Assembly: GCA_009991595.1 (NCBI GenBank)
Contig: JAACVK010000024.1
Span: 1 to 64,000, forward strand
DNA from: a bacterium
GTDB taxonomy: Bacteria; Bdellovibrionota; UBA2428
Direction of reading: 5' to 3'
Length of the DNA stretch: 64,000 nt
The notes under the pieces were generated by a model that saw only the letters and a program-made list of their open reading frames with translations, searched no databases and was not told the origin of the DNA. This document shows, one piece after another, positions 24,590 through 56,826 of this stretch; within the stretch, counting starts at the first letter, position 1, and each line of letters begins with the position of its first letter. The translations under genes were made by a program, and so were the position numbers.

Positions 24590-25228
24590 ATGACAAACTC
24601 AGAACCTATTTTAGAGCACGATGAGGGGCAGAGTGATGATGAATACGTGCGCTCAAATATTAAAAAAGGGCTTTTTGTCCTGCTTCTCTTGTTTGTTTCT
24701 CTAGTCGTTGTCGGATTCTATTTTAATGAACGCCTAGAAGAGCTTTCTCATTGGTTTTTAAAGAACACAAACATTTGGGGCATTGTTACCTTTGTCTTTT
24801 TTAATGATTTCATTATTTCGCCTATTCCTCCAGACGTAATACTGGTTCTAGCGACAAAGGGAGCAAGCTATTCGAGCAATTTAGAGATGAGCTTGGCTTT
24901 TGGTGTTGCCTCAACCCTCGGGGGTTGCGTCGGGTGGGCCATTGGCCGCTATGTTTTAAAGCCCACTTGGTTTGGTGAATCATTTAAGGGGTTCATTTAT
25001 AATAATCATCGTCGTATTAATAAGTATGGGAAACTGATGGTTGCTCTTGGGGCTCTAACGCCATTGCCTTATTCGATGACCTGTTGGGCCGCTGGCTTTT
25101 TGAAAATGGATTTTAAGGACTTTGTGTTTGTTGCTTCCTTAAGAATCATAAGATTTTTGCTCTACTTTAAAATCATCATGGCCAGCGAGCAGTTAAGCAC
25201 ATGGCTCAGTACTCTTTTCGGCGCCTAG
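24590..25228 (+). CDS. VTT/DedA-type membrane protein (YqaA-like)
   Basis: 212 residues. After an acidic N-terminus there is a first membrane helix (~29-46), then a VTT-like core: FNDFIISPIPPDVILV, glycine-rich GVASTLGGCVGWAIGR and the later ALTPLPYSMTCWAAG re-entrant motif. DedA/VTT proteins move lipids or lipid carriers across membranes. A Shine-Dalgarno AAAAAGGA lies just before the ATG. Its final Ala codon and TAG stop are inside the left inverted repeat of the adjacent RAYT element. Confidence 0.78.
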   Translation: MTNSEPILEHDEGQSDDEYVRSNIKKGLFVLLLLFVSLVVVGFYFNERLEELSHWFLKNTNIWGIVTFVFFNDFIISPIPPDVILVLATKGASYSSNLEMSLAFGVASTLGGCVGWAIGRYVLKPTWFGESFKGFIYNNHRRINKYGKLMVALGALTPLPYSMTCWAAGFLKMDFKDFVFVASLRIIRFLLYFKIIMASEQLSTWLSTLFGA

Positions 25229-25262
25229 CGACTTTTTCCATACCCCCCGCTACCTTTTTCCA
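25221..25262 (+). repeat. Left inverted repeat of RAYT element 1
   Basis: 42-base arm starting GCGCCTAGCGACTTTTTCCA and ending CTACCTTTTTCCA, exactly complementary to 25907-25948. It contains the TAG stop (25226-25228) of the VTT gene and, on the minus strand, the TAG stop (25250-25252) of the transposase gene. Confidence 0.9.
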
Positions 25263-25876
25263 TCGCGGGGGCGACTTGGCGGCAAAAACTTGTATCGCCT
25301 CAACCCTAAACGGGTTCTATTCAGCTCTTGCTGTGACATTAGATTATTTGCTCTTTGTTCGTCTTCAACGAGGGCAACCTCTCCTGAGTCTTGAAAAAGT
25401 GGGTGAGAATAGATTGGTGGAAAGTTGTCAATTCTACCTTGAATACCAGAGAAGGAGCTGTAGGGATAGTCCTGCGCCTTTGCGCATATGCCTGCTCTGA
25501 TTGGGTTCTGATGGATGTAATCGTAAACTTGATAATAATGTCTAGCATTAGAAATAATGGACCATTTGTATCTTCCCGAAAAACGAAACCTCTGCAAACT
25601 GGTTTCTCTCTTTATCCATGCACTTAACTCAGATTGAAAATAACCTGCAATTTCATCGATGTTCTCGTCCGGCGTGCTAGCCAGCAAGTGATAATGATTG
25701 CTCATTAAAACAAAACTATGAACTCTTAGATGATTAGCCCAACTTAAAATTCTAAGAATGTCACAGCATTGCGACCAGATTCGATTAGCCTCTACTGGAT
25801 AAAACTGCTGGTCCAGACTTCGATTATAGATATGGTATGGAAGAACGGAAGATCGAATCAAAGGTTTTCGTGGCAT
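25250..25876 (-). CDS. REP-associated tyrosine transposase (Y1/HUH family), copy 1
   Basis: 208 residues from ATG 25876. This start aligns with that of the second RAYT in the window (both begin with a short basic stretch then LPYH); an earlier Met at 25900 and a longer frame from 25987 run into the inverted repeat and tyrS. The HUH metal/DNA motif is His61-Tyr-His63 in MSNHYHLL. The candidate catalytic Tyr is in VYDYIHQNP (Tyr118 or Tyr120). No helper or cargo gene is present. The C-terminus ends in a basic tail (RPRDGKR) encoded by the left inverted repeat. Such single-domain enzymes process REP palindromes as single-stranded DNA. Confidence 0.88.
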   Translation of the reverse strand: MPRKPLIRSSVLPYHIYNRSLDQQFYPVEANRIWSQCCDILRILSWANHLRVHSFVLMSNHYHLLASTPDENIDEIAGYFQSELSAWIKRETSLQRFRFSGRYKWSIISNARHYYQVYDYIHQNPIRAGICAKAQDYPYSSFSGIQGRIDNFPPIYSHPLFQDSGEVALVEDEQRANNLMSQQELNRTRLGLRRYKFLPPSRPRDGKR

Positions 25877-25906
25877 GTGATAGGCCAAAGCAATTTCCAT
25901 GCCTAG

Positions 25907-25948
25907 TGGAAAAAGGTAGCGGGGGGTATGGAAAAAGTCGCTAGGCGC
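25907..25948 (-). repeat. Right inverted repeat of RAYT element 1
   Basis: 42-base arm, perfect reverse complement of 25221-25262. Its outer end contains the tyrS stop codon (25941-25943). Just inside it, TTTCCA and TGGAAA around TGCCTAG form a further small hairpin (25895-25913). Confidence 0.9.
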
Positions 25949-27149
25949 TGGGGCGGAAAAGGACTTTAAGGTATTTGCGTTTGCCAACTTTCACGGTGAC
26001 TTCGGATTTGCCTTCAATCACATAGGTGGTGTCTTTGATCTTTTCACCATCAATAGAAACCCCACCTTGAGCAATAAGTCTTCGTGCTTCCGAGAGAGAG
26101 GCTGCTAAATCATTTTCAGCCATTAGCTTGGTCAGCGGAGTTTGTGCTCCCGTTACAATCTTCTCGGGAATTTCCGAAGGGAGACCTTTTTTAGAAAAGA
26201 TCGCTTCAAACTCTTTAGCGACTTCCTGCGCGGCTTCTTCGCTGTAGAATCGCTCAACTAATTCTTGAGCCAAGCGAACTTTCGCTTCCTTGGGGTGCAT
26301 CTGCTTAACGGCATCGAGATTTTCGGTGGTGAGTAGTTCATAGTAGCGAATCATTAAGTCATCGCTGATGCTCATGATCTTGCCAAAAATTTCTTTAGGT
26401 TCTTCGGTGATTCCGATGGAATTGCCTAAGGATTTGCTCATTTTTTGGACGCCGTCTGTGCCTTCTAATATTGGCAAGAGGACAACCACTTGAGGTTCCT
26501 GCCCGGCATTCTTTTGATATTCGCGTCCTAAGAGAACGTTAAACTTTTGATCTGTGCCACCAAGCTCTACGTCTGCTCGTAACTGAACTGAGTCGAAGGC
26601 TTGCACAATAGGGTATAGAAATTCATGCAACGAAATAGGGTGTCCACCCTTATAGCGTTTTGAAAAATCATCTCGCTCAAGCATTCTAGCCACGGTCATT
26701 TGTGAGGCCAGTCGAATCACATCGGTTATCTTTAAAGTATCATTCCACTGAGAATTAAAAACTATTTGCGTTTTAGACGGATGAAGAATCTTGAGGACCT
26801 GATCGGAGTAGGTTTTTGCGTTTACCTTTACTTCTTCACGTGTAAGGTTTTGTCGGGTTTCACTGCGACCTGTGGGGTCACCAATCTGGGCTGTGAAGTC
26901 GCCAATCAAAAATAGAACTTGATGTCCTAGTTCTTGAAACACTCGAAGTTTTTCTAATACGACCGTATGGCCTAAGTGAAGGTCAGGACGGGAAGGATCT
27001 ACTCCCAGTTTAATTCTCAAAGGACGGTTTTTTGAGATAGAGGTCTCAAGTTTTTTCACCAATTCCGCTTCGGGAACAATTTCGTCCACACCACGTTTGA
27101 TCTGTTCTAATTGTTTGGCGACTTGATCTTCAATGAGTTTTGATGACAT
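25941..27149 (-). CDS. tyrS: Tyrosine--tRNA ligase
   Basis: 402-residue class I aminoacyl-tRNA synthetase charging tRNA-Tyr. The nucleotide-binding HIGH motif appears as HLGH at 58-61 and the KMSKS motif at 236-240. An S4 RNA-binding domain closes the protein (from ~335: [20 protein letters not shown]). The motif pattern and the spacing fit the TyrZ-like branch of bacterial TyrRS. The last Ala codon and stop are part of the RAYT right inverted repeat, although the protein ends at a normal position. First gene upstream is ymdB, 24 bases away on the same strand. Confidence 0.95.
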
Positions 27150-55199: not shown

Positions 55200-55247
55200 C
55201 AGCAACCCTTTCGGAGGGTTTAAGCAGCCATCCCGGGTTTTTCTGCA
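55200..55247 (+). repeat. Left inverted repeat of RAYT element 2
   Basis: 48-base arm beginning CAGCAACCCTTTCGGAGGGT and ending in TTTTTCTGCA. The internal hairpin AACCCT-TTCGG-AGGGTT is of the REP type. Reverse complement of 55919-55966 with 3 mismatches. Confidence 0.85.
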
Positions 55248-55280
55248 GTAGTTTGGCACTAGAATTGCTTCGGCCTGAGT

Positions 55281-55916
55281 ATGGCTTATTCCAAATTAGT
55301 TAGAAGTGCCGAATTGCCTTATCATGTTGTGAATCGCTGCCTAGATAAAGAGTTCTATCCAGTTTCACTCGATAAATGCTGGGAACAACTCATGTTTCTT
55401 TGTCACACGATCACCTGTATTTATGGAGCTCGCATCCACGCTTTTGTTCTTATGAGCAATCACTATCATATGTTGGTAAGCACGCCAGACGCGAATCTAG
55501 ATGATTGCATGCAATATTTTCAAAGAGAGTTTAGCCTTTGGATGAAGGAGCGAACGGCAAAACAAAGGTATCGATTTCAGGGGCGATATCGTTCATGCTT
55601 AATCTACGAAGAAAGACATTTCCTCAACGTCTATCGCTATATTTACCAAAATCCAATGCGGGCGGGAGTTGTGAAAAAAGCTGAAGATTATCCGTTTAGC
55701 AGTCTTCATGGCAGGGTTGGAAAATCCGTTTTAAAGTTCCCTATTTGGCCGTCCGCGCATTTGCTTGGTGGGGCGCTACCGGAGAGCTTAGAAGACGAGG
55801 TAGAGTTCATAAACAATCGAGTAGCCGGAGATGAGGTTGAACGAACGCGAAGAGCTCTCGGCCGTCGCAATTTCAGACCAGCAGCTCGCCTCGCTCCTTC
55901 AACGAAGAAAATTTAA
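55281..55916 (+). CDS. REP-associated tyrosine transposase (Y1/HUH family), copy 2
   Basis: 211 residues from ATG 55281. HUH motif His61-Tyr-His63 (MSNHYHML) and catalytic Tyr in VYRYIYQNP (Tyr118 or Tyr120), the same positions as copy 1, with which it aligns nearly without gaps over the first ~130 residues. The C-terminal third is different from copy 1, and so are the repeats around it, so these are two separate RAYT/REP families rather than one duplicated element. Basic C-terminus (RLAPSTKKI). The enzyme should cut and join its cognate REP hairpins. Confidence 0.88.
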   Translation: MAYSKLVRSAELPYHVVNRCLDKEFYPVSLDKCWEQLMFLCHTITCIYGARIHAFVLMSNHYHMLVSTPDANLDDCMQYFQREFSLWMKERTAKQRYRFQGRYRSCLIYEERHFLNVYRYIYQNPMRAGVVKKAEDYPFSSLHGRVGKSVLKFPIWPSAHLLGGALPESLEDEVEFINNRVAGDEVERTRRALGRRNFRPAARLAPSTKKI

Positions 55917-55918
55917 CA

Positions 55919-55966
55919 TGTAGAAACACCTGGGATGGCTGCTTAAACCCTCCGAAAGGGTTGCTG
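55919..55966 (-). repeat. Right inverted repeat of RAYT element 2
   Basis: 48-base arm containing GGGATGGCTGCTTAAACCCT and CCGAAAGGGTTGCTG; hairpin AACCCT-CCGAA-AGGGTT. It starts 3 bases after the transposase stop. Confidence 0.85.
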
Positions 55967-56778: not shown

Positions 56779-56826
56779 TGCAGAAACACCCGGGATGGCT
56801 GCATAAAGGTTCCGAAAGGGTTTGTG
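56779..56826 (-). repeat. Solo diverged REP-like copy of the RAYT element 2 arm
   Basis: Begins 2 bases after the lipoprotein stop and shares GCAGAAACACC, GGGATGGCTGC and CCGAAAGGGTT with 55919-55966 (about 8 of 48 positions differ). The original stem AACCCT/AGGGTT is lost, but GCATAAA and TTTGTGC with a CC-GAAA-GG centre form a new hairpin, so structure appears to be kept. Confidence 0.7.

Follow-up and report, generated by a model that had tools for sequence, protein, structure and literature searches.

RAYT transposases evolve fast and are always flanked by inverted REPs, and the REPs around orthologous RAYTs change yet remain inverted (Nunvar et al. 2010, PMC2817692). TIRtrons, their TIRYT transposases and the associated families of TIR repeats have been described by Di Nocera et al. 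(2013, PMC3733652), who also report that convergent REPs are found no more than 20 bp away from either ORF and that the termini of GTAG REPs often supply the TAG stop of flanking ORFs. Most TIRYTs form subclass 2.1 of the TnpA_Y1 family and carry a C-terminal HTH (PMC6006769). IS200/IS605 elements are without terminal inverted repeats and use subterminal hairpins (PMC2817692, PMC6006769). A single literature search pairing Bdellovibrio with 'tyrosine transposase' found no paper; as described here, TIR-type RAYT elements are common in Bdellovibrionota.

In the window, the 64,000-nt stretch of DNA analysed here, a gene for a VTT-domain membrane protein (24590..25228, + strand; Pfam VTT_dom, 48 bits) converges on tyrS, encoding tyrosyl-tRNA synthetase (25941..27149, - strand; TIGR00234, 382 bits), and the element sits between the two. 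Using a repeat search, we find a 42-nt inverted repeat whose arms, 25221..25262 and 25907..25948 (both unstranded), are 100% complementary and 644 nt apart; the left TIR arm reads GCGCCTAGCGACTTTTTCCATACCCCCCGCTACCTTTTTCCA and the right TIR arm is its exact reverse complement. By chance, 64 kb of sequence would be expected to contain about 1e-16 exact inverted repeats of 42 nt. In the left arm lie the TAG of the VTT gene (25226-25228, +) and that of the transposase gene (25250-25252, -), for which this arm also encodes the C-terminal GKR; the right arm contains the TAG of tyrS (25941-25943, -). Both neighbours end in Ala-stop (GGC GCC TAG in VTT, AGC GCC TAG in tyrS), with the final GCC TAG inside the arm and a coding overlap of 8 nt on each side. 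The TyrS proteins of relatives have their C-terminus at about the same residue. Most other copies of the arm have an extra outer base (GGCGCC...), which is present on the left of the window element (G25220) and absent on the right, where 25949 is unpaired. A preliminary description of this DNA had already given the perfect pairing of the two arms, the three stop codons inside them, the Ala-stop ending of both flanking proteins and the position between convergent genes, and the coordinates and sequence bear it out on all of these.

The gene between the arms (25250..25876, - strand) encodes a RAYT/TIRYT-type Y1 (HUH) transposase. Its product scores 28 bits against Pfam Y1_Tnp (cut-off 23), its sole NCBIfam match is REP_Tyr_transpos (NF047646; 56.9 bits, under the cut-off of 80), and its sole relative of solved structure is TnpA_REP (PDB 4er8, E=7.5e-9), in agreement with the RAYT-type identity first suggested for it. 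The genome holds five paralogues that are 29-45% identical to it, and in an alignment of all six transposases the HYH motif and the Tyr of Y-x3-NP are invariant. Judging from the paralogues, translation most likely starts at ATG 25876 (MPRKPLIRS), giving 208 aa; the TTG that opens the longest ORF is the less probable start. A Pfam search gave no match to an HTH domain. The element had been called a RAYT with a perfect palindrome; the first part of this holds, but the palindrome exists only between the arms, which makes the element a TIR-flanked TIRtron and not a GTAG-REP element. The GTAG-REP reading was rejected, given that a lone arm is unfolded (not self-palindromic) and that copy C41a has GTTG in place of the GTAG letters within the arm, the partner arm showing the matching change.

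Searching the genome for other occurrences of the 42-mer and of its hairpin, as the preliminary description had proposed, turned up a single arm and four pairs that lack the gene. In these four hairpins (92-95 nt; C15:121693-121782, C15:125176-125268, C40:50404-50494 and C41:11240-11330), arms of 42-43 nt pair near-perfectly around a loop of 6-10 nt, with folding z of about -17 to -19; in the window element, the transposase gene occupies the place of this loop. The lone arm lies at C41:10353-10394 (L021:1854-1895). An arm taken by itself folds no better than shuffled sequences. Because single arms are unfolded and whole copies fold, the palindrome is the pair of arms and not the single arm. 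The left arm of the window element has the same sequence as the left arm of copy C15a and as each of the two arms of C40. Changes in C15b (position 28) and C41a (position 31) are compensatory, being mirrored in both arms, and three further changes are one-sided. Only one copy of this arm family in the genome bears a gene, and copies of the window arm were found in none of 58 relatives. As a separate observation, the lone C41 arm, read in inner orientation, supplies an unrelated reading frame, some 100 codons long, with its final GKR and its TAG; the letters are those found at the end of the transposase gene.

Arms are clear around five of the six transposase genes of the genome and weak around one. 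Four other RAYTs have flanking arms of 28-52 nt whose sequences are quite different from those of the window element, and the sixth, at a contig end, has only a weak arm pair. Arm families A and C, which belong to other RAYTs, have dispersed copies of their own. More than 12 arm copies are dispersed for the RAYT at C35:895, and several elsewhere in the genome for the RAYT at 55281 in the window. This second window RAYT (55200-55966) has 48-nt arms (94%) of a family distinct from that of the 25221-25948 element, and a third arm of its family lies at 56779-56822, just past the stop (TAG) of the next gene. The same contig carries, outside the window, the RAYT at C85:71456 (L025:1876-2593, equal to G000:C85:71375-72092); each of its convergent neighbours has a TAG stop at the outer edge of an arm, and the arm family of this RAYT is unrelated to that of the window element. 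Copies of the family C arm (AAAACGTATCCGTTTACTTTT; L040, L051, L059, L058 and L060) abut gene ends, where the run of A at their start forms the end of a TGA or TAA stop (TGAAAACG, TAAAACG); the window family has different arms and supplies a different stop codon.

We scanned 101 unique RAYT loci, of which 78 are from Bdellovibrionota, for flanking arms with a score of at least 20; the null distribution from mismatched pairs has a 95th percentile of 17 and a maximum of 25. Such arms flank 62 of the 78 Bdellovibrionota loci, and as a positive control the published GGGGTCAG-type arms were recovered in loci from outside this phylum. In raw counts across related loci, restricted to arms of at most 70 nt and to long-ORF stops taken from ORF calls, 43 of 89 outer arm ends are at most 10 nt away from a stop, compared to 0.5% at shifted control positions. 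TAG makes up 24 of these 43 stops versus 45 of the 132 stops at other places in the loci (OR 2.4, p=0.019), and the excess is also seen in a motif-anchored set (OR 3.1, p=0.003). Of 44 elements, twelve are flanked on both sides by convergent stops, and in eight of the twelve both stops are TAG. Sharing stops with both neighbours, which had been regarded as less usual, is therefore recurrent for such elements and in part already published, the supply of TAG by repeat ends having been reported (PMC3733652). The arms of Bdellovibrionota have a recurrent terminus, TAGGTACC/TAGGTACG: many begin with (T)AGGTACC or (T)AGGTACG and, after about 4-6 nt, continue with ACTTTT. The arm of the window element, GGCGCCTAGCGACTTTTT, seems to be a variant of this terminus. 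Several convergent gaps in the window measure between -4 and 26 nt, and short convergent gaps of this kind account for part of the stop proximity, not for the TAG excess. We think it doubtful that the TAGG... terminus with stops at both edges, through which one insertion into convergent genes that overlap or abut would replace both of their stops, is a selected or mechanistic feature as opposed to an accident of compact genomes.

One pair of loci bears directly on the age of the arms. In L110 (Bdellovibrio sp. qaytius) and L132 an element occupies the same gap, between kpsF and a gene for an outer-membrane protein. The two kpsF genes are 90% identical and the outer-membrane proteins 70%, and the RAYTs are far more divergent than these neighbours. 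The arms differ at several positions between the loci, and within each locus the left core equals the right, apart from one left/right mismatch in L132. Arms that match within a locus and have changed between loci imply that near-identity of the arms can persist without movement. In relatives that lack the element, which provide a one-sided empty site, kpsF has the same final residue and a TAA or TAG stop, so the insertion left the length of the protein unaltered. The L132 RAYT (Pseudobdellovibrio sp.) has 163 aa, compared to 216 aa in L110, and may have been truncated while its arms were kept.

How, then, did the window element come to lie between tyrS and the VTT gene? The preliminary description took the perfect arms as a sign of recent movement or conversion, and on the former account the whole 728-nt unit would be a mobile IS that has recently jumped into the junction. 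The identity of the arms to each other and to those of the C40 copy would fit such a jump. So would the outcome of removing 25220-25948 in silico, which leaves two ORFs with a 35-nt overlap of their tails: VTT ends ...LFWGGKGL-stop and tyrS ends ...FRPRKEY-stop, resembling the FRPKKI-stop of relative G001 (other relatives end in FKQS-stop or FAQK-stop). This is compatible with an insertion into overlapping gene tails in which both stops were replaced by the element. Direct comparison with an empty tyrS/VTT site found none: the TyrS proteins of 26 phylum relatives aligned well and VTT adjoins none of them, homologues of VTT are remote, and the nearest relatives belong to other genera, without synteny in the neighbourhood. 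Empty sites for the C41, C15 and C40 copies were likewise not found, the homologues of their neighbour genes being too distant, and the flanks that were read showed no target-site duplication. Against a recent jump stand the single gene-bearing copy, paralogues that are divergent and have different arms, and the near-identical arms of the unmoved orthologous site in L110 and L132. Since arms change in concert at that site, recent movement is not required by perfect arms, which provide no clock for transposition, and we regard a recent jump of the whole unit as unlikely.

The position at gene ends admits two further accounts. The insertion of IS608 takes place 3' of a fixed tetranucleotide, and in a similar way the transposase might target stop codons or their surroundings through a short target such as TTAG, landing exactly at gene ends. 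The enrichment of TAG at arm ends would agree with this, as would L132, where the gene's own end GTTAGGTAG stands directly before the arm end TTAGGTAG. However, the TAG of the window family sits inside the arm, a distance of 2-9 nt separates its other copies from the stop, 19 of the 43 cases above have TAA or TGA as the nearby stop, and short gaps alone would bring insertions near stops; targeting of this kind is improbable in our view. Lower still do we rate the account in which the palindrome is selected as a bidirectional terminator or stabiliser of mRNA 3' ends and the transposase is a passenger. The site between convergent genes, the very stable hairpins of the gene-less copies and the preservation of pairing by paired changes all speak for such a role, and arm-to-arm pairing would be possible in a through-transcript. 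Yet a search for intrinsic terminators found no stem followed by a T-tract (U-tract in RNA) at the arms, the arms are 644 nt apart in the window element, the element matches no Rfam family, and conversion could also give the paired changes. A role as terminator or stabiliser is quite unlikely.

We propose instead, with good confidence, that the locus is a TIRtron in which a single-copy Y1 gene lies between identical arms and is accompanied by scattered gene-less palindromes, the arms being mobilised while the gene-bearing copy remains static, its arms kept alike by correction. Both the action of this protein on the arms and the way in which the palindromes spread are inferred. Most likely, the transposase would recognise and cleave the arms in single-stranded form, and the palindrome would be copied or moved to new sites while the gene-bearing copy stays put. 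Correction from arm to arm, by gene conversion or hairpin-templated repair, would keep the arms identical as their sequence drifts. Insertions would persist where they are harmless, as they would be where convergent genes are separated by very few nucleotides. Close to each of its outer ends the arm carries a TAG in frame, so either neighbour could gain a new stop with the length of its protein almost unchanged. The analysis provides a terminus that recurs among the arms, along with a testable account of how such elements settle between convergent genes.

Compared to known systems, the element shares with IS200/IS605 the Y1/HUH transposase domain and differs in its 42-nt terminal inverted repeats and its single gene-bearing copy. 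Like a REPtron, that is TnpA_REP/RAYT with GTAG REPs (PMC2817692, PMC8266576), it has a gene between inverted repeats with a repeat family of its own for each transposase, repeats at the 3' ends of genes, TAG stops from repeat termini, and arms near the transposase stop. Unlike a REPtron, its arms are not palindromic singly and GTAG is not constant, as the GTTG of C41a illustrates; its transposase, at 56.9 versus 80 bits, falls below the NF047646 cut-off for the RAYT sensu stricto of GTAG REPtrons. REPINs are reportedly gene-less inverted arm pairs that form one long hairpin and are dispersed between genes, much as the gene-less copies here; the latter differ in amounting to only four full pairs, with arms of 42-43 nt versus short REPs and a loop of 6-10 nt. 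The closest match is the TIRtron/TIRYT (PMC3733652), with a RAYT-like Y1 transposase between long TIRs (here the perfect 42-nt arms), several elements per genome that each have different TIRs, TIRs that occur as singles and dimers (here one single arm and four pairs), and TIRs that overlap gene ends. It departs from this type in that the GGGGWSAS of many, though not all, published members is by reading absent from the window arm, and many Bdellovibrionota arms have another terminus, TAGGTACC/G, about 4-6 nt and then ACTTTT. The window element is a TIRtron of well-described anatomy with its own small palindrome family.
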